Source of the DNA: Rhodanobacter sp. 67-28
Lineage (GTDB): Bacteria; Pseudomonadota; Gammaproteobacteria; Xanthomonadales; Rhodanobacteraceae
DNA length: 64,000 nucleotides
Reading direction: 5' to 3'
Assembly: GCA_001898415.1 (NCBI GenBank)
Contig: MKTU01000074.1
Coordinates: 8,134-72,133 of the forward strand
Part shown: in pieces, positions 18,710 to 49,432 of the stretch
Position numbering within the stretch: position 1 is the first letter of the stretch
Layout of the letters: every line of letters begins with the position of its first letter
The notes under the pieces: model-generated
The model's input: the letters and a program-made list of their open reading frames with translations, nothing else
The model's database searches: none
What the model was told of the DNA's origin: nothing
Position numbers and translations under genes: made by a program

Positions 18710-19744
18710 ATGGATCGCGGCAGCATCGGCGGGATGATGGACAAGCTCGGCATGATCGGTCGCGTGGCCATCGTGATGGTGATGACGCCGATCGTGTTCT
18801 GTTCCGGCGCGTGGGCCGCGCTGGCGCTGTGGTATCGGCTGCCCAGCGGCCGCGCCGGGCGCGCGCTGGGCAGTGCGCTCTGGGTGATCGCGACCGGAGT
18901 GCTGTACGCCTGCGCGATCGGCGGGCGCAGCTGGCTGCCGCTGGTCGTCCATGCCGCGCTGTACGCGATGGTCCTGCTGTGGTGGGTCGCGATCAGGCCC
19001 TCCGGCGCGCGCGACTGGCGCGACGACGTTGCCCGCACGCTGACCGGCAGCGTGCACGGCGATCGCGTGGTGCTCGACAACGTGCGCCACTTCGCCTGGC
19101 GCAGCGACAACGATTACGACATCCGCTGGGAGCGCCACGAGTACGACCTGGCGCAACTGGCCAGCGCCGATGCGGTGCTGTCGCACTGGGGCAGCCGGGC
19201 GATCGCCCACGCCATGATCTCGTTCGGTTTCGACGACGGCCGCCACCTGGTGTTCTCGGTGGAGGTGCGCAAGAGCCGCGACCAGGAGTATTCCTCGGTG
19301 GGCGGCTTCTTCAAGCAGTTCGAGACGATCCTGGTCGGCGCCGAGGAAGACGACATCATCCGCGTGCGCACCAACGTGCGCAACGAGGACGTCTATCTGT
19401 ATCCGCTGCAGATCGAACCGGCCACGCTGCGCGCGCTGCTGCTCTCCTACGTGCATGCGGCCAACCGGCTGGCCGCGCGGCCGGCGTTCTACAACACCTT
19501 CACCTCCAACTGCACCACCCTCGTCCATCGCATGGCGCGGCAGATCGATCCGGGCCTGCCATGGGACATGCGCCTGCTGCTGACCGGCTATCTGCCGGAG
19601 TATCTGCAAGGCATCGGCGCCCTCGATCGTCGCGTGCCGATCGGAACACTGCGCGAGCGCGCACGCATCAGCGAACGCGCCCGTGCGGCACCGGCCGGCG
19701 CCGATTTCTCGCGCGCGGTGCGCACCGTCACCGCACGCGACTGA
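18710..19744 (+). CDS. DUF4105/Lnb N-terminal-like membrane protein
   Basis: The product of about 344 aa has two to three N-terminal membrane helices (IVMVMTPIVFCSGAWAALALW and WLPLVVHAALYAMVLLWWVAI), then an exported domain with FAWRSDNDYDIRWERHEYDL, SHWGSRAIAHAMISFGF, EVRKSRDQEYSSVGGFF and FYNTFTSNCTTLVHRM. The conserved His and Cys pattern is that of DUF4105, a papain-like fold proposed as a peptidase or acyltransferase. GGAGGA touches the ATG at 18710 directly, so ATG 18734 or 18737 is an equally good start. Confidence 0.8.
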   Translation: MDRGSIGGMMDKLGMIGRVAIVMVMTPIVFCSGAWAALALWYRLPSGRAGRALGSALWVIATGVLYACAIGGRSWLPLVVHAALYAMVLLWWVAIRPSGARDWRDDVARTLTGSVHGDRVVLDNVRHFAWRSDNDYDIRWERHEYDLAQLASADAVLSHWGSRAIAHAMISFGFDDGRHLVFSVEVRKSRDQEYSSVGGFFKQFETILVGAEEDDIIRVRTNVRNEDVYLYPLQIEPATLRALLLSYVHAANRLAARPAFYNTFTSNCTTLVHRMARQIDPGLPWDMRLLLTGYLPEYLQGIGALDRRVPIGTLRERARISERARAAPAGADFSRAVRTVTARD

Positions 19745-42664: not shown

Positions 42665-43144
42665 CGGCGCGTAAAGCAAGCCGCGCTGGGAACTGCAAGG
42701 CCGGCGGCAGGTTTGCGTGACCTGACGGGCGGCGATGCTCCGCTCCTGATCCGGTTGGCGCGGTACCCGCTTACGATGGCAAGCGCACGGGAGAGCCACC
42801 ACGGACCGCCGAGGCAGCAAGGCGCGAGAAATATCCCGAACTGTCGAATTCCCGTCCGTCATCCCCGCAAGCCGCCCTCGACAGCTAAGCCTGATCAAAC
42901 CGTGGCCCGGCATGCGGTTGACCGCAAGCAGAATCGACCGTGCCGCGGTAGCATGCATATCGGCGTTTTCGAGGTGATAACGCATACAAGCCTCGTTTCG
43001 CGAGATATGCACGCCAGCGTGCACCGAATGGCGCACCGAGATGGCGAGGCAACTCCTTGATAGGCTGCAGAACTTCCGACTTGACGGTGCCGCAGCGAGC
43101 GCGGAGCATGGCGTGCATATGCCCCGATCTGGGGTCTACTTGGC
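42665..43144. other. Gap before the cassette array; no integrase seen
   Basis: No frame in these 480 bp looks like a real protein on either strand. In particular I see none of the tyrosine recombinase motifs expected of an integron integrase, which would normally sit here facing left. The region ends at GCGTTAGGC, the apparent left edge of the array. Confidence 0.6.
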
Positions 43145-43163
43145 GTTAGGCACGGAGACACGC

Positions 43164-43460
43164 ATGTCCTTTTTTGCCGGTGTTGCACTCGTGGCTTTTG
43201 CGGCCATCTGGCTCACGGCGGTCCTCACTTTGCTGGCTTGTGTCATCTATTCTTTCAAGGCTGTTCGCCGGGCTCGCCCAGACATCAATCTCTGGGGCCG
43301 CGACACCCTGTGGAACCCGCTCAACGTGTTGCTTAGCTCGAAGATGCTCACAGACGAGGGCCTGCGCTACCGTCACAAGTCTCTTGTGTCACTGGCAATC
43401 TTCGTCGCATGCGTCGGTGGTACTTTGCTGTTTGCAGCAATCACAGGGCACCTCAGGTGA
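43164..43460 (+). CDS. Cassette 1: small two-helix membrane protein
   Basis: The 98-aa product starts at ATG 43164 with GGAG upstream, within 20 bp of the cassette edge as is usual. It has an N-terminal helix (VALVAFAAIWLTAVLTLLACVIY), a loop with INLWGRDTLWNPLNVLLSS, and a C-terminal helix (SLVSLAIFVACVGGTLLFAAI). Family unknown; similar membrane proteins are common in cassette arrays. Confidence 0.75.
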   Translation: MSFFAGVALVAFAAIWLTAVLTLLACVIYSFKAVRRARPDINLWGRDTLWNPLNVLLSSKMLTDEGLRYRHKSLVSLAIFVACVGGTLLFAAITGHLR

Positions 43461-43470
43461 GTTACGGGCT

Positions 43471-43527
43471 GCCTAACCAGTCGTTCAAGGCGGACGGCTG
43501 CGCCGCCGCTTAACTCCAGCGTTAGGC
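43471..43527 (+). repeat. attC1
   Basis: 57-bp attC: GCCTAAC at the left, GTTAGGC at the right, with an imperfect palindrome around GGCGGACGGCTGCGCCGCC between them. It ends cassette 1. Confidence 0.92.
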
Positions 43528-43587
43528 CGCTCAAAACGGTATCGTCGTAATCGCTGCATTTCTTTCAATTGCAAAGGGGAGTTGCTC

Positions 43588-43827
43588 ATGAAGGTCTTCG
43601 AATCTGCGTTGCTTTTAGTCGTGGGTACGGTGTTGCTTACGTTCAGCGCCATCTCGCTTGGACTTTTCCCGCGCCCACTCACGCTCAGCAATCCCACGCT
43701 ATTCGTTGAGGCGCTCGCCATCGCCGGCTTGGTTCTTTTCGGTCTTGGTGTACGCGGTCTCTATCGCGTTCATCGCATCATTTCCGGCAACAGCTCGTAC
43801 GCTCCGTCCCGCAGCGCAGCGGCCTAA
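43588..43827 (+). CDS. Cassette 2: small two-helix membrane protein
   Basis: The 79-aa product starts at ATG 43588 after AAGGGGA. It is nearly all membrane: ALLLVVGTVLLTFSAISLGLF and LFVEALAIAGLVLFGLGVRGL. Its TAA stop is part of the GCCTAAC of attC2, a frequent arrangement in cassettes. Function unknown. Confidence 0.75.
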   Translation: MKVFESALLLVVGTVLLTFSAISLGLFPRPLTLSNPTLFVEALAIAGLVLFGLGVRGLYRVHRIISGNSSYAPSRSAAA

Positions 43828-43885
43828 CCCGTCGTCCAAGCGGACGCGCGAAAAAGCCGCGCGCCGCTTAACTCCAGCGTTAGAC
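43822..43885 (+). repeat. attC2
   Basis: 64-bp attC of the longer-stem type (GCGGACGCGCG and GCCGCGCGCCGC arms), left core GCCTAAC, right core GTTAGAC. Confidence 0.92.
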
Positions 43886-43899
43886 AAAAAGGGAAAATC

Positions 43900-44220
43900 A
43901 TGTCGATCGTCAAAGAGCGGGAAAAGCTAGCACTAGACGCAATCAGGAAGGTTTTCGGCACGGAGGCTGGCGAAGACAGCGTCAATCTGTTTGTTGAGCA
44001 TCACCTAGCAGAACTGCCGCAGAGCTACTGGGTACAATATCTCGGCTCAGAGTCTCCTGAAGCTTCGGCCGTCATTAATCTTCTGGAGCTCAACTCTTCG
44101 TGGGGGGATGGCGAGATTGAAAATTTCGATTTCACACTCCCCGGTGACGTGACGGACTACATGGTTTCTGTGCATTTTGACGAGAGCGGCAACATTGATG
44201 AAATATCGATGGAAAGTTGA
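43900..44220 (+). CDS. Cassette 3: DUF2004-like protein
   Basis: The 106-aa soluble, acidic protein ends with FDFTLPGDVTDYMVSVHFDE and a terminal IDEISMES, which is how DUF2004 proteins end. There are no membrane segments. The start is 15 bp inside the cassette. DUF2004 proteins are of unknown role, often found near toxin immunity-type genes; that link is not shown here. Confidence 0.75.
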   Translation: MSIVKEREKLALDAIRKVFGTEAGEDSVNLFVEHHLAELPQSYWVQYLGSESPEASAVINLLELNSSWGDGEIENFDFTLPGDVTDYMVSVHFDESGNIDEISMES

Positions 44221-44232
44221 GCGATTGTATCT

Positions 44233-44289
44233 GTCTAACAGTTCGTTCGAGGCGGACGGCTCCGCCGCCGCTCAACTCAAGCGTTAGGC
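44233..44289 (+). repeat. attC3
   Basis: 57-bp attC, left core GTCTAAC, right core GTTAGGC, central palindrome GGCGGACGGCTCCGCCGCC. Confidence 0.92.
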
Positions 44290-44294
44290 CGCAG

Positions 44295-44636
44295 ATGAAG
44301 AATCTCGACATATTCTTAGACAGGGTCGAATCAGACGGCATTTTCGTCGCAACTAATAATGCTGACGAGGTGCCGGTCGGCACAGTGTTCACACAGCTCG
44401 TAAAAGTACGCGTTGGGGGTGCCTCCGACGCTGGTAGTGCTACTGAGTTGTGCTCAACCCCTGTTCGCCTCCGCCTGACTGGCGCTGTCATTCTTCGTAA
44501 GTCCGTTCCGGCAATACCTAGGGGCTGGAGCGCGGGCCTACGCCTAGAGGGCACGGGATTGGATACAGTCGAAGATGCACTCTCTGGCAAGGTAGCAGGA
44601 GAGTTCATTCACCTACGGGCTGCGGATGCGGCCTAA
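44295..44636 (+). CDS. Cassette 4: hypothetical soluble protein
   Basis: The 113-aa product (MKNLDIFLDRVESDGIFVAT) starts six bases after the attC3 core, with no room for a strong ribosome-binding site, so it may depend on a leaderless or weak start. It contains EVPVGTVFTQLVKVRV and IPRGWSAGLRLEG, suggesting a beta-rich fold. Its TAA overlaps attC4. Family unknown. Confidence 0.7.
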   Translation: MKNLDIFLDRVESDGIFVATNNADEVPVGTVFTQLVKVRVGGASDAGSATELCSTPVRLRLTGAVILRKSVPAIPRGWSAGLRLEGTGLDTVEDALSGKVAGEFIHLRAADAA

Positions 44637-44687
44637 CATTTCATTCGAGGCGGACGGCTACGCCGCCGCTCAATTCCAGCGTTAGCA
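44631..44687 (+). repeat. attC4
   Basis: 57-bp attC, left core GCCTAAC, right core GTTAGCA. The central palindrome is GGCGGACGGCTACGCCGCC. Confidence 0.9.
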
Positions 44688-44710
44688 CTCAAGAGCATGG
44701 AGCTCTGCAC

Positions 44711-44935
44711 ATGTCCAACACTCGCATCACTTTTCGCAAAGTTGCTACAGGCGCTGCATGTGGCCTGGTTGGTTTCGTGGTTGGCGGTTTCGTAGCCCAA
44801 GCAGTTGTACGCTACTTCGCAGGGTCACCGGCGTGGGAGCTCCCAGCAATCATTTGTGGTGCACTTGCTTTGTTTGTTGTTGCCGTCTTGGTTGTCGCGC
44901 CTGCTATCGGAGCAAAGGCATCCAATCGCAAGTAG
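44711..44935 (+). CDS. Cassette 5: small two-helix membrane protein
   Basis: The 74-aa product has a glycine-rich helix (GAACGLVGFVVGGFVAQAVV) and a second helix (AIICGALALFVVAVLVVAPAI), with a basic C-terminus. Unknown function; typical small cassette membrane protein. Confidence 0.7.
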   Translation: MSNTRITFRKVATGAACGLVGFVVGGFVAQAVVRYFAGSPAWELPAIICGALALFVVAVLVVAPAIGAKASNRK

Positions 44936-44945
44936 CGCGCCGGCG

Positions 44946-45001
44946 TGCTAACCAGTCATCCAAGCGGACGGCTCCGCCGCCGCTTAATTCCAGCGTTAGA
45001 C
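44946..45001 (+). repeat. attC5
   Basis: 56-bp attC, left core TGCTAAC, right core GTTAGAC, central palindrome around GCGGACGGCTCCGCCGC. Confidence 0.9.
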
Positions 45002-45003
45002 CT

Positions 45004-45405
45004 ATGCGCCTTCTACTAACCATCGCACTGCTCGTCTTCATGGGCGTAGCCCACGGCCAAGGGCCCTCGGTTCCGGCTTCAATCGCTGGACTCTGGCAAT
45101 TTGGTGAGCACACGGTTTGGATCCGTATCGACCCGAACGGTACTACCTACCAGTGTCGCATCGCTCCCGGCGGCACTGTTTACACTTCCGAAGGCACCTT
45201 TGCCCCACCTAGCTCCATCCGATGGCGGCAAATCTGGGGCACGGATCAAGCTTCAAATCCTCAAGCGGGCGCATTGATACTCAAAGGCCCATACGGTTCC
45301 TTTGAGTACCATGCCACCTCACAGCCAATGTATGGCGCATGTGCAGCTCCGGGGCAGGCGTCTAACTCTTCGTCCAAGCGGACGCGCGTACCGCGCGCCG
45401 CTTAA
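45004..45405 (+). CDS. Cassette 6: exported hypothetical protein ending inside attC
   Basis: The 133-aa product starts at ATG 45004, only two bases after the attC5 core. It has a signal peptide (LLLTIALLVFMGVAHGQ, cleavage near residue 19) and a small beta-like domain (SIAGLWQFGEHTVWIRIDPN, TYQCRIAPGG) with three cysteines. There is no stop before attC6, so the last 14 residues or so (SNSSSKRTRVPRAA) are encoded by the attC site itself. Function unknown. Confidence 0.7.
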   Translation: MRLLLTIALLVFMGVAHGQGPSVPASIAGLWQFGEHTVWIRIDPNGTTYQCRIAPGGTVYTSEGTFAPPSSIRWRQIWGTDQASNPQAGALILKGPYGSFEYHATSQPMYGACAAPGQASNSSSKRTRVPRAA

Positions 45406-45419
45406 CTCCAGCGTTAGGC
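45360..45419 (+). repeat. attC6
   Basis: 60-bp attC of the longer-stem type, left core GTCTAAC, right core GTTAGGC; its left half is translated as the end of cassette 6. Confidence 0.92.
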
Positions 45420-45422
45420 CGC

Positions 45423-45740
45423 ATGGAAAGTCTATTCGCGCTCGCATACACCACTGGCCTCATTGCATTCTGGTCGGGTGTCATCGTGACACTTTGGCGC
45501 TTCGTGCAGATGGCTTCCCGGCTCTCAGCTGCGACTGCAGTCCGGTTCGCGGCTGCGTCTTTGGCACTCGCGGTCGGGGGTTACATTCCGGCTGCACTCA
45601 TCGGCGCTTGGGGCTTTTGCTCGGCGTCAGCCGGCGGCCTCTGTGCACTGGGTGGGTATGTCGGCACCGGGCTGGTCGCTGCCGGTGGCGTGCTGCTTTA
45701 CCGTTTCTTTCGGGCGCGCCGGGAACTCGCTGCGGCCTAA
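45423..45740 (+). CDS. Cassette 7: three-helix membrane protein
   Basis: The 105-aa product starts four bases after the attC6 core. It has helices FALAYTTGLIAFWSGVIVTL, FAAASLALAVGGYIPAALIG and GLVAAGGVLLYRFF, and a cysteine pair (FCSASAGGLCALGG). Its TAA is part of attC7. Family unknown. Confidence 0.72.
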   Translation: MESLFALAYTTGLIAFWSGVIVTLWRFVQMASRLSAATAVRFAAASLALAVGGYIPAALIGAWGFCSASAGGLCALGGYVGTGLVAAGGVLLYRFFRARRELAAA

Positions 45741-45787
45741 CAATTCGTTCAAGGCGGACGGCTCCGCCGCCGCTCAACTCAAGCGTT
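45735..45787 (+). repeat. attC7, left part, interrupted by the IS
   Basis: GCCTAAC, the central palindrome and GCGTT are present up to 45787. The rest of the right core (AGGA) resumes at 47592 after the IS and a second GTT (47589-47591). Confidence 0.9.
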
Positions 45788-45957
45788 GAGGCTGTAGAAA
45801 AACCCCTTTCCACGGACGGATAGACGGCCAACACGATGACCGTGGCATCTCGTCACTCAACGGCGTGGTTTCCCGGGGTCTCGCGTTGCGGGTTGCCCGG
45901 CTTGATTTGACGCCATGGGCACGCGTTTCAGGCGGCCGTGGGCACGCCTTGTACCGC

Positions 45958-47524
45958 TCAGGCTGCCTTGCGGTAGTTCGCCCACTTCTCGATGTTGTGG
46001 ACCAGCGCAAACAACTTCCATTGGCCGTCCACCTTCGCCTGGCCGCGCAGGGTGAAGCGGTTGAGCCGCTTGTTGGCGCGCACGTTGCCGAAGACGGGTT
46101 CGACGGTGGCGAAGCGTCGCCCGTACTGTTCGCGTCCCCACGCGCTGTCGATGCGCTCGCGCATGCGCTGGCTGTGGGTGGGTTCGGCCTTGCGGGTGAG
46201 CACGGCAACTTGCCGCGAGCGCGTGGTCTGGGGTTTGCGCAAGCACTTCGTGCGCAGCGGGCAGCCTTGGCAGGCAGCCTCCGGTGCGCGGAACTTGATC
46301 GCGGCGTAGCCGCCGATGGTGCAGTCCTTGCCGTTGCGATGCAGGCGCTTTCCGGCCGGACAGGTCGCATGGGACTGGTCCGGCGCGATGATGAAATCCG
46401 CGCTGCCGAAGAGACGTGGCTTGGTCGGTTGGCGGGTCTTGTCGTGCAGCGGATCGGGCTTGGCCAGGTGCTTATCCTGCTCGGCGAAACGTTCGTCGCG
46501 CCGGCGCATGGCGTTGTCGGCGATCAGGGCGTCGATGCCCCTCTCGGCCAGCGCTTCCAGGTTGGCTTCGCTGTGATAGCCGGCATCGGCGGTGATCAGC
46601 GTGGCTGTCGTGCGCTGGCCGGCGCAGGCGTCGAGGACGGGTAGCAACAGCTCCTGTTCCGCGCTGGTGCCGTGGGCGGATGCCTCGACGATCACCTGAT
46701 GCTTGTCATCGACCACGGCGACGCCGCAGTAGCCCTGGATCACGCCCTTGTCCGTGGCCAGCTTGGCCGATTCGTTGTCGGTGCGGTTGGACTTGCGAAC
46801 CTTGCCGCGCGAACCGGGCCGGTCTTCCGGATGATCGGCCAGCCACTGGCGGATCTTGGTTGCCTCGCGGGTCAGTCGCTCGAGGCGAGCAGCGGCCTTG
46901 GCATCTCGTACGTCTTCGGCTGCGCCGGCGTCGTTGGCCTGGTGGCGTTCCAGCATGGTGGTCGCCGCACGCTCCATCTTCTGCGCCTGCGCGAGGAACT
47001 CGGCGCGGGTGCCGGAGCGATGTTTGGAGGCGTTCGAGGGCAACTTGACGCCATCGATGGCGAACACGACCCACAGGGATGTGGGAAGTGGTTGTTGGCG
47101 TCTGGAACGCCAACAGGCCCTCGCGACCGATCAGGCCCTCGCCATCGAGCAGGGTCAGCACTTGGGCAAATATCGTGGCTATGGCTTCGCGCGAACGACT
47201 GACGAAGTCCGCGAGGGTGGTGAAGTGCGGCTTGGCATCGCCGGTCAGGGCAATGAACAACACGTTGTCGCGGCACGCCCGCTCGATCGAACGCGAACTC
47301 ACCATGCCTTGCGAGTACGCCAGCAGCACGGCCTTGAGCAGCATCGCCGGTGCATGGGCCGGCGCGCCGGCCTCATCATTGCGGTAGCGCGCATCGAATG
47401 CCGTCAGATCCAGCTGATCGACCAGATGGTGCACGGCATGGGCAAACGATCCCGGCACCAGCTGCGCTTGCAGGTCCACCGGCAACAGCCGCGGACTCAT
47501 GTCGATGTGTCGGTAGCGTGCCAT
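45958..47524 (-). pseudogene. IS1182-family transposase, disrupted by a 52-bp insertion
   Basis: The N-terminal part (47524 down to 47120) reads MARYRHIDMSPRLLPVDLQA, LLAYSQGMVSSRSIERACRD, DFVSRSREAIATIFAQVL and LLDGEGLIGRE. After 52 extra bases the frame resumes with VFAIDGVKLPSNASKHRSGT and runs to 45958 with the DDE core (ITADAGYHSEANLEAL) and a cysteine motif (CQGCPLRTKC). Without the insertion the protein would be about 504 aa, right for IS1182. As it stands the frame is lost after about residue 135. Confidence 0.85.
47068..47119. repeat. 52-bp palindromic insertion in the transposase gene
   Basis: The segment contains two perfect hairpins: TGTTGGCGT/ACGCCAACA around a 5-nt loop, and CCCACA/TGTGGG around a 4-nt loop. 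Its removal restores one continuous transposase frame (LIGRE joined to VFAIDG). Confidence 0.7.
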
Positions 47525-47607
47525 GCCGGTTCCACTTGTTCGCGTGGGGCTATTGAAGCAAGATCGGCAGAGGTTTTTCTACAGCCTCGTTAGGAGTAAG
47601 AAACAGG

Positions 47608-48120
47608 ATGTTGGCTCTCGAAAGTCCTTTTTGGTCCGAGCTCCGGCACGCCTACGGAGCCGCGACAGATATCCCTGCGTTGTTGAGTCAACTCTCTAGC
47701 TACCCAAGCGAGGCGTCCTACCAAGACGAACCATGGTTCACGTTGTGGAGTTCGCTCTGCCATCAAGGCGATATCTACTCTGCGTCTTTCGCGGCGGTTC
47801 CCCATATTGTCCGCGCTCTAGCGGCTAACACTTCACAGGCTTCTGTCAGCTACTTCCTACTGCCAGCGAGCATCGAGGTAGCTCGTGCATCGGAAAATAC
47901 GGTTGTTCCCCCATCGTTGTCCGTGGCCTACTTTGCTGCGCTCGCTCAACTCCCTGCGCTTGCAGGGGCGGCCGCGCGGCCCGAGTGGGACGAATCGCTG
48001 TGTACTTCGGCTCTCGCAGCAACCGCCGCTGCCACCGGCAACCATCAAACTGCACAGCTACTGTTGGAGACGGAGCAGAGCGATATTCTTGAGGTCATCA
48101 ATTGGCTCCAGTCGCGCTGA
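47608..48120 (+). CDS. Cassette 8: hypothetical soluble alpha-helical protein
   Basis: The 170-aa product starts at ATG 47608, 17 bp past the restored GTTAGGA core. It is rich in Ala/Leu/Ser with WSSLCHQGDIYSASFAAVPH followed by IVRAL, a pattern found in uncharacterised HEAT-like bacterial proteins. It has no membrane helix or signal. Its upstream boundary is now the IS end rather than an intact attC. Function unknown. Confidence 0.72.
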   Translation: MLALESPFWSELRHAYGAATDIPALLSQLSSYPSEASYQDEPWFTLWSSLCHQGDIYSASFAAVPHIVRALAANTSQASVSYFLLPASIEVARASENTVVPPSLSVAYFAALAQLPALAGAAARPEWDESLCTSALAATAAATGNHQTAQLLLETEQSDILEVINWLQSR

Positions 48121-48121
48121 C

Positions 48122-48180
48122 TCCTAACCACTCGTCCAAGCGGACGCGCGAAAAGCCGCGCGCCGCTTAACTCCAGCGTT
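48122..48180 (+). repeat. attC8, left part, interrupted by a 157-bp element
   Basis: TCCTAAC, the longer palindrome (GCGGACGCGCGAAAAGCCGCGC region) and GCGTT are present to 48180. The right core resumes as GTTAGGC at 48338-48344 after the insertion. Confidence 0.9.
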
Positions 48181-48337
48181 GAGGTTGTAGAAAAAGTCGG
48201 TTTGCCAAGTTGATCGCGGCGGCGCCGAAAATCGCCCTCACAGGAGGCGCTAGAATCGACGCGCAGCACCTTGGGAGGGGTCGAAGTACCCCCGGAAATC
48301 GGCAAATTTCTTGACCAAGGACTTTTTCTACAACCTC
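48181..48337. mobile_element. 157-bp MITE-like element inside attC8
   Basis: Perfect 18-bp terminal repeats GAGGTTGTAGAAAAAGTC and its complement bound non-coding DNA. GTT flanks both ends. The termini match those of the IS at 45788-47588 at 14 of the first 15 bases, so that IS family probably moved it. Confidence 0.88.
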
Positions 48338-48350
48338 GTTAGGCTTGCCC

Positions 48351-48686
48351 ATGGAATTTGTCACAACTTTGATGGAAACCGCCGCAGCCGACACGGATGT
48401 ACTTCGGTCACTCGATCGCAATGGCGACCACTTTTCGGTGTTCCGCGATGTTGATTTTCTTCTGGTGGCACCCGACGCAGAAAAGGCGGCGCTCGTTGCA
48501 TCCTTTGTTAATGAGCACAGCTATGGCAAGGCTATCCTTCAAGACACTGCATCCATTCTTGTCACTATCAACATGCCTGTCGAGCAACCCGTAGCTCTAT
48601 GCGTCTCTGGCTTTTTCACGTGTCTCGCGCAGCTATTCGGCGTCGAGTACGATGGCTGGGGGTGTGTGGCACAGGCGCAAGCCTAA
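48351..48686 (+). CDS. Cassette 9: RraB-family (ribonuclease E inhibitor-like) protein
   Basis: The 111-aa acidic protein starts at ATG 48351, seven bases after the attC core. It contains DRNGDHFSVFRDVDFLLVAP, a segment beginning EHSYGKAILQ, and the C-terminal FGVEYDGWGC, which matches the VEYDGWG ending of RraB. RraB binds RNase E and changes degradosome composition in E. coli. The family match rests mainly on the C-terminal motif and overall size. Whether the cassette copy inhibits RNase E is unknown. Confidence 0.75.
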   Translation: MEFVTTLMETAAADTDVLRSLDRNGDHFSVFRDVDFLLVAPDAEKAALVASFVNEHSYGKAILQDTASILVTINMPVEQPVALCVSGFFTCLAQLFGVEYDGWGCVAQAQA

Positions 48687-48737
48687 CCACTCGTTCGAGG
48701 CGGACGGCTCCGCCGCCGCTCAACTCAAGCGTTAGGT
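48681..48737 (+). repeat. attC9
   Basis: 57-bp attC, left core GCCTAAC, right core GTTAGGT, central palindrome GGCGGACGGCTCCGCCGCC. Last attC recognised in the array. Confidence 0.92.
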
Positions 48738-48755
48738 ACACATGGGGGCTTCATC

Positions 48756-49160
48756 GTGCGGGTCGTCATCATTTCCATGTTGCTGTGTCTTGTCGGCTGC
48801 GCGTCTAACCAGCCGAGCGCGCCGCCTGTGGTGTACTCCGTAAATTCGAACGACGCATCCTCAAACGTATGGGTTGTGGACGCTATCGACCATGTTGCAA
48901 AAAAACGGGTTCGGTATTTCTTGGTCTGCGATTTTTACCACTGGGGCAACCGCGAGATCGTTAAAGGCCCAACAGCCTGCGATCTTTCGGTAGGGGAAGA
49001 GATAGCGCCCAATCCATTCCAGACTCGACCCGGCGGCTTTCTTGACATTTGGGTGCGCCAAGGGATTTTGTCGATCACCAAAGGCACTGGCAGTGAGCAG
49101 GTTGTAGAGCAATTCACCATCCAGTCGGCTAAGGTTCTACCGTATGCGGATAAAGGATAA
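48756..49160 (+). CDS. Cassette 10: putative lipoprotein, no attC downstream
   Basis: The 134-aa product starts at GTG 48756, with GGGGG upstream. The signal peptide ends in lipobox LVGC (VIISMLLCLVGCAS). The mature part includes VWVVDAIDHVAKKRVRYFLV, YHWGNREIVKGPTACDLSVG and FTIQSAKVLPY. Its last codons run into the repeat patch (GATAAAGGATAA). No attC follows, so its own recombination site may have been lost. Function unknown. Confidence 0.7.
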   Translation: MRVVIISMLLCLVGCASNQPSAPPVVYSVNSNDASSNVWVVDAIDHVAKKRVRYFLVCDFYHWGNREIVKGPTACDLSVGEEIAPNPFQTRPGGFLDIWVRQGILSITKGTGSEQVVEQFTIQSAKVLPYADKG

Positions 49161-49386
49161 AGGGGACGTGGCCAATTAAATGGGGCAGGATAAAGGGGAC
49201 GTCAATAAAGGGAACGAATAATGGGGACGTCGAATAATGGGGACGGAATAATGGGGACGTGGCCAATTGAATAATGGAATAATGGGGACGTGGCCAATTA
49301 AATCAGTTCTTGGTTGCTTCGCAGTGGCCGCCCCGCGAGCGGCATACGGTGGTGGGATAAAGAGGACGCGGCCAATTGAATCCGGC
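49161..49386. repeat. Degenerate short-repeat patch
   Basis: About 225 bp of imperfect repeats built from AATAATGGGGACGT or GATAAAGGGGACGT and GGCCAATT (four copies of the latter). The units are irregularly spaced and partly broken. No gene is present. This marks the right edge of the accessory region. Confidence 0.75.
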
Positions 49387-49432
49387 GAACCTCAGAACCT
49401 GACCCGTTCCGGCCTCCCAAACGGAGCATCCC

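Follow-up and report, generated by a model that had tools for sequence, protein, structure and literature searches.

A MITE and an insertion sequence lie in neighbouring attC sites

The window (the whole stretch of 64,000 nucleotides analysed here, from Rhodanobacter sp. 67-28) contains a cassette array with nine attC sites on the plus strand, of which the seventh is occupied by an insertion sequence (IS) and the eighth by a MITE. The first six sites (43471–43527, 43822–43885, 44233–44289, 44631–44687, 44946–45001 and 45360–45419) and attC9 (48681–48737, called by the attC model) are unoccupied. The attC covariance model was trained on these seven unoccupied sites only, and both occupied sites, attC7 (45735–45787) and attC8 (48122–48180, E 2.2e-13), were recognised by the model trained without them. 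In the whole genome the model detects 39 attC, namely 22 on contig 67, nine on the window's contig, five on contig 77 and three on contig 35; contig 67 also encodes an integrase that passes the TIGR02249 cut-off. At the end of the window's array (49154–49381) there is a cluster of short direct repeats, ATAATGGGGACGTGGCCAATT-like, with five copies of 28 nt.

The MITE occupies 157 bp on the plus strand (48181–48337), contains no transposase gene, and is supported by its terminal inverted repeats (TIRs), by a second copy in the genome and by a model of the MITE family. Its two 18-bp TIRs, the left at 48181–48198 (plus) and the right at 48320–48337 (minus), are perfect and 100% complementary to each other. 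On the attC side it follows the GTT that ends attC8 and forms the integrase crossover triplet (48178–48180, plus), and on the other side a second copy of GTT (48338–48340, plus) starts the core GTTAGGC of the next cassette. The upstream cassette contains an ORF of 170 aa (47608–48120, plus) without a Pfam match at E 0.001, and the downstream cassette an RraB-like ORF of 113 aa (48345–48686, plus). Bases 1–15 of the MITE are identical to the end of the IS in the same array at 14 of 15 positions. Thus, the earlier note, which had placed a 157-bp MITE in attC8 at the same GTT position as the IS in attC7 and had reported this 14/15 terminal match, proved right in its coordinates, TIRs, GTT flanks and terminal identity.

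Being short and non-coding, with TIRs common to an autonomous IS, the element has the characters of the MITE class. Its minus strand is crossed by chance ORFs of 84–86 aa, and a consensus scan of positions 48100–48400 found no sigma-70 promoter or terminator within it. The attC model found no attC of its own within either the MITE or the IS of the window, so that neither of them qualifies as a gene cassette. When joined to the first bases of the element, attC8 still folds as single-stranded DNA (−17.2 kcal/mol vs −19.0 kcal/mol for the natural site), and the upstream attC may therefore remain usable; for attC7 the energy is unchanged (−11.8 kcal/mol) and the fold is different. The MITE interior (48225–48295) contains the motifs GAAAAGCGACC.CAC and CTACAATCGACG and a hairpin GGGG-TTCAAG-CCCC, which are partly common to MITEs from different families of the order.

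The IS in attC7 belongs to the IS1182 family

The IS is 1801 bp long, lies on the minus strand (45788–47588) and is flanked by GTT on both sides (45785–45787 and 47589–47591). Its transposase gene is split. The C-terminal part, with a DDE_Tnp_1_6 match in Pfam, covers 45958–47067 (minus), and the N-terminal part, with a DUF772 match, is contained in an ORF at 46706–47524 (minus), in which the transposase match ends at 47120; between the two, an insert of 52 bp with two predicted hairpins (47068–47119, minus) splits the frame. The window's copy of the IS is for this reason probably inactive, and its split transposase is the only relative of its clade found in its own genome. The assignment to the IS1182 family is based on two intact relatives, which score 316.5 and 272.3 bits with the NCBIfam model NF033551 (cut-off 270). 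The residues D140, D296 and E458 are invariant in all eight aligned transposases, and their position in the motif suggests that they form the catalytic DDE triad.

The insert in the transposase gene has features of its own. The folding z-score of the segment 47060–47130 is −3.3. At the corresponding position Rhodanobacter spathiphylli contains a 50-bp version of the insert, in which one pair of the first stem is C-G instead of T-A; the 52-bp and 50-bp versions leave different reading frames. Possible readings of the insert are a mobile palindrome of small size, a remnant, or a bypassed stretch.

Copies of the MITE are found in the same genome and in relatives

A second copy, identical to that of the window at 157 of 157 positions, was found on contig 32 of the same genome. 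It follows the end of an attC (CGCCGCTTAACTCAAGCGTT), precedes GTTAGGC and has the same orientation as the window copy. The attC of this copy has lost its 5' part and is not called by the attC model; the 5' cut (near position 2889 of locus L117) adjoins what resembles an IS3-type transposase gene. The earlier note had named duplication within the array as the event that could mimic two independent insertions. The identical copies differ in both the upstream attC and the downstream cassette, and two copies in a related genome (G030) also have different neighbours, so that the copies are not explained by such a duplication.

A BLAST search revealed MITE copies with 70–80% identity at four places in three other genomes of the genus; of the eight genomes matched by the search, four (G028, G096, G224 and G256) had matches of only 21–38 nt, which were not counted as copies (one such locus, L007, was inspected). 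The attC and GTT are clear at three of the four places, and the copy in G032 is decayed yet still lies between GTT and GTTAGGC. The search for copies in relatives, proposed in the earlier note, was extended with the MITE model to 297 relatives and gave 18 distinct places in 10 genomes (own genome included). GTT is present on both sides at 12 of the 18 places, on one side at four (the variants on the other side being ATT, ATT, GTG and GCT) and on neither side at two (G190, G043). The attC model confirms an attC on the GTT side at nine places (the window, two each in G030, G002 and G196, one each in G179 and G060), the G196 copy at 19444 with an E of 0.05 only. No attC-model match was obtained at the remaining nine, one of which is the 5'-truncated attC described above. 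Nine places with MITEs of the window's type (window, contig 32, two in G030, one each in G002 and G032, three in G179) all have one direction relative to the array.

Clearly different MITEs were also found: 167 bp in G002, 188–189 bp in G196 and 127 bp in G276. The last, which comes from another family of the order, is present twice (C110:7404–7530 and C146:15345–15471; L282 and L286), shares the TIR and is flanked by GTT on either side; no attC was visible at this pair by eye or with the attC model. Between MITEs of different genomes 23–30 of 30 TIR positions are identical, and the interiors are 42–88% identical. Preservation of the TIRs while the interiors diverge is as expected if a transposase reads the TIRs, and we infer that the MITE would be moved in trans by a partner transposase. 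A collection of plasmids contained no match to the DNA of the MITE or of the IS.

GTT flanks the element across its transposase relatives

Here, we scanned a species-genome collection with an alignment of eight transposases, and the best 79 distinct loci of 407 relatives were analysed. By their labels they come mostly from Beta- or Gammaproteobacteria, with several from Gemmatimonadota. Single contigs among these best 79 are labelled Verrucomicrobia, Armatimonadetes or Alphaproteobacteria; such single labels may be binning errors, since MAGs are frequent among the genomes and an Oxalobacteraceae MAG encodes exactly the protein found in the Armatimonadetes contig.

All of these best 79 transposase-anchored loci show GTT at an end. 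Both ends could be read in 64 of them, and in 58 of the 64 GTT is found on both sides in the sense of the array, which by the sense of the transposase gives 35 loci with AAC/AAC and 23 with GTT/GTT. The other six deviate on one side, including two (L186 and L189) which look like wrongly picked ends and were kept in the 64. At all 15 loci with only one readable end, this end carries GTT or its complement. Among perfect TIRs in loci fetched by place, 5 of 35 are not preceded by GTT or AAC. In G060 (C2:4115235–4118737, L079) two IS copies follow each other in tandem, separated by one GTT only, as though the GTT next to the first had been used by the second.

The target sites are attC as a rule

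The attC model is a Rhodanobacter model that was not built from the 79 loci. Among its best matches in these loci (the best 72 of 83), 17 end within 6 nt of an element end, as compared with 0.14 expected, and all 72 lie on the strand expected from the array direction that the element predicts. The TIR-like ends at 45 loci (window, own genome and relatives) were classified by the preceding triplet: GTT stands before 34 of them, AAC before 39 and another triplet before 10, some of the last being decayed or unrelated. An attC-model match was found at 27 of the 34 GTT-side ends vs none of the 39 AAC-side ends.

A comparison of 63 sites with 669 control GTTs shows a stronger hairpin before the GTT of the element sites (p=2e-10). 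At 11 of the 63 sites the hairpin is weak, and the mark applied here is also attained by 425 of the 669 controls. At 52 sites the sequence around the element was aligned; C stands before GTT in 49 and AG after the second GTT in 37, and no other column of the 40 upstream exceeds 0.8 bit (rounded). As conservation upstream is low beyond this C, the attC is probably recognised by its structure. We also tested R'/R'' pairing on joined empty sites, and both criteria were passed by 20 of 52 sites vs 33 of 930 controls; this test is insensitive, since the next cassette need not match the preceding attC.

The true site preference proposed in the earlier note is thus borne out by the GTT pairs and the attC matches. 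The condition that the note had set for refutation, a majority of copies away from attC, does not apply: GTT is on both sides at 58 of 64 transposase loci, an attC-model match at 27 of 34 GTT-side ends, and 9 of 18 MITE places are confirmed by the model. Among the exceptions are the sites with weak hairpins, the G276 copies and L096. The last (G176:C37, 1682) is an IS of clade B, whose transposase is about 49% identical to those of the first clade; the attC model gave no match at its site, and the IS is preceded by a hairpin (−10.6 to −12.7 kcal/mol) ending in CGTT. This site may be a natural hint at the minimal target.

Orientation is fixed within transposase lineages

The tree comprised 76 clade members, of which 71 come from the 79 loci and five are additional, and three outgroup proteins; eight of the 79 transposases have a broken frame and were left out. 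The orientation of the transposase relative to attC requires two changes (antisense) or three (sense) on this tree, as compared with means of 26.0 and 25.0 for shuffled labels, and none of 500 shuffles was as low; the shuffle tests label clustering only, and near-copies contribute to it. Thus, orientation is fixed within transposase lineages. The outgroup branch is long, which leaves both the root and the polarity of these changes unsure.

A lineage probably specialised on attC

Whether or not they carry a transposase gene, elements with the TIR GAGGYTGTAGAAAAA as a rule stand directly after the GTT of an attC, and a second GTT opens the next cassette. We consider it likely that the 157-bp MITE derives from an IS1182-family lineage specialised on integron attC. 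A DDE transposase, acting in trans in the case of the MITE, would bind the TIR and recognise the attC hairpin together with CGTT, as the attC sequences share little else; the element would then be joined at the attC with a 3-bp target duplication of GTT. As attC is asymmetric, the orientation would be locked and the element ends would not be exchangeable. The insertion would leave the attC hairpin in place, and the first bases of the element (mostly GAGG, GACG or GAAG) would extend GTT toward the natural GTTRRRY, so that the upstream attC could still fold. The MITE may then travel as a leader of the downstream cassette. The earlier note had suggested a small non-autonomous family in integron arrays. 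MITEs at attC were indeed found, but this description is too narrow for what appears to be a deep IS1182 lineage with several different MITEs.

GTT is also the crossover triplet of the integron integrase, and one may ask whether the integrase inserts the element. The transposase would then excise a circle with GTT at its joined ends, and IntI would recombine this circle at G^TT of an attC as a pseudo-cassette devoid of attC. The triplet itself fits this idea, as do the locked orientation, as if GTT travelled with the circle, the tandem IS-GTT-IS in G060, which resembles a cassette array, and the presence of IntI above cut-off in 13 of 15 genomes (two matches being partial). If it were true, transposition would be coupled to integron activity and the orientation would be inherited via the GTT on the circle. 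We nevertheless find it unlikely. Neither the MITE nor the IS of the window contains an attC-model match, G137 and G196 have elements at attC without an IntI above cut-off (both are draft genomes), and MITEs that encode nothing have retained their TIRs, for which IntI would have no use. The conservation of TIRs in elements without genes argues for a role of the transposase in excision at least. The fixed orientation fits both an integrase-inserted GTT circle and a transposase that reads an asymmetric target. Eight one-sided GTT variants (four transposase loci, with L186 and L189 set aside, and four MITE places) include five that fit the integrase cut, and about four would be expected by chance.

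Cassette shuffling after one old insertion, in which the copies would have travelled solely along with gene cassettes, is a still less probable account. An occupied attC still folds upstream, so that the element and the downstream cassette could be excised together, but the identical MITEs of the genome have different neighbours on both sides, the G030 pair likewise, and the IS as well as several different MITEs are found at the same position; we regard this account as already mostly refuted. Over-reading of common GTT-flanked palindromes, by chance or through mis-called attC, is very improbable. Hairpins near GTT are indeed common in GC-rich DNA, where 284 of the 669 controls reach −10 kcal/mol, but this does not account for the 17 attC matches at element ends in place of 0.14, for the concentration of matches on GTT sides (27/34 vs 0/39 on AAC sides) or for the 58 of 64 loci with GTT on both sides. 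The reading that we prefer is the transposase lineage specialised on attC.

Relation to distant IS1182 copies and to known systems

A protein search of plasmids matched 1913 records, all with less than 60% identity; among the 60 matches listed, H1–H3 reach 40–43% identity and the remaining 57 no more than about 30%. Eight plasmid records were read, and element ends were found in five; none were found in H2, H3 and H60. H1 (L290, Pseudoalteromonas, 41% identity) has GTT/GTT, and the attC model matches that locus only elsewhere. The four distant IS1182 copies (26–28% identity) have other ends (with GTGTGAAAAC), and no GTT/GTT was found at their ends, nor an attC-model match in their loci. Two of them, L294 and ISPpu20 (L295), each occupy the centre of a palindrome, and the other two (L293 and L296) are not clear.

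Some IS1182 members are described as targeting palindromic sequences, and IS1272 as replacing stem-loops without target duplication (PMC5678879). Replacement is the mode of this one member and does not define the family. It was not seen here, the attC being kept and GTT present on both sides in 58 of 64 loci. An inverted-repeat target, a trait of some IS1182 members, is found here as well, with a weak hairpin at 11 of 63 sites. Like IS1272 and ISPpu20 of that family, the elements have an NF033551 transposase, terminal inverted repeats and an inverted-repeat target; unlike these kin, they use a single type of hairpin, attC, at one position, with the hairpin kept and GTT on both sides. On a small outgroup sample, the simplest reading is that attC targeting looks like a specialisation from general palindrome targeting to the foot of the attC hairpin.

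Insertion sequences of the IS1111-attC group that target attC were reportedly described by Tetu and Holmes in 2008 and by Post and Hall in 2009. This group of the IS110 family (ISKpn4, ISPst6) targets one end of the cassette attC; it has a DEDD transposase and subterminal repeats, and a non-coding region supplies its guide RNA (PMC11187229). The elements described here are alike in their attC target, but they combine an IS1182 DDE transposase with terminal repeats. Membership in the IS1111-attC group was rejected on these grounds, as the NF033551 and Pfam matches do not indicate a DEDD transposase and the repeats are terminal, not subterminal.

Group IIC-attC introns are mobile elements that also target attC. 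The window's elements share this target, but a Rfam search of 43000–49400 gave no match to an intron family at E up to 5, and a Pfam scan of five ORFs found no reverse transcriptase, for which reasons an intron was rejected. The one Rfam match to a known RNA family in the array is far under the gathering score and away from the MITE. Bacterial MITEs such as MITEAba12 and the Tn3-derived TIMEs are short, gene-less, present in several copies and bear the TIRs of an autonomous element. The 157-bp element has the same build, and attC is not given as a target in the brief descriptions of these MITEs that were compared.

Among the matches listed in a search of open-licence literature, we found no paper presented as describing attC targeting by IS1182 elements or by MITEs; in the parts of the open-licence papers where 'IS1182' and 'attC' are both named, their co-mention is incidental. 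The lineage is a widespread branch of jumping genes, represented in at least two phyla and accompanied by several miniature derivatives, which apparently has not been described so far. Next to IS1111, whose transposase is unrelated, it would form a second class of insertion sequences specific for attC, and if so, attC hairpins would be a niche to which transposons have adapted on more than one occasion. It would also offer a DDE transposase whose target is apparently read mostly by structure. The lineage has a bearing on how DNA other than cassettes enters an array, and on what moves cassettes or freezes them in place. In a survey of plant-associated arrays, 49% of the transposases in phyllosphere cassette arrays were assigned to IS5 (PMC11089894). 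Some of these 'IS5' transposases may belong to the present IS1182 lineage, filed under IS5.
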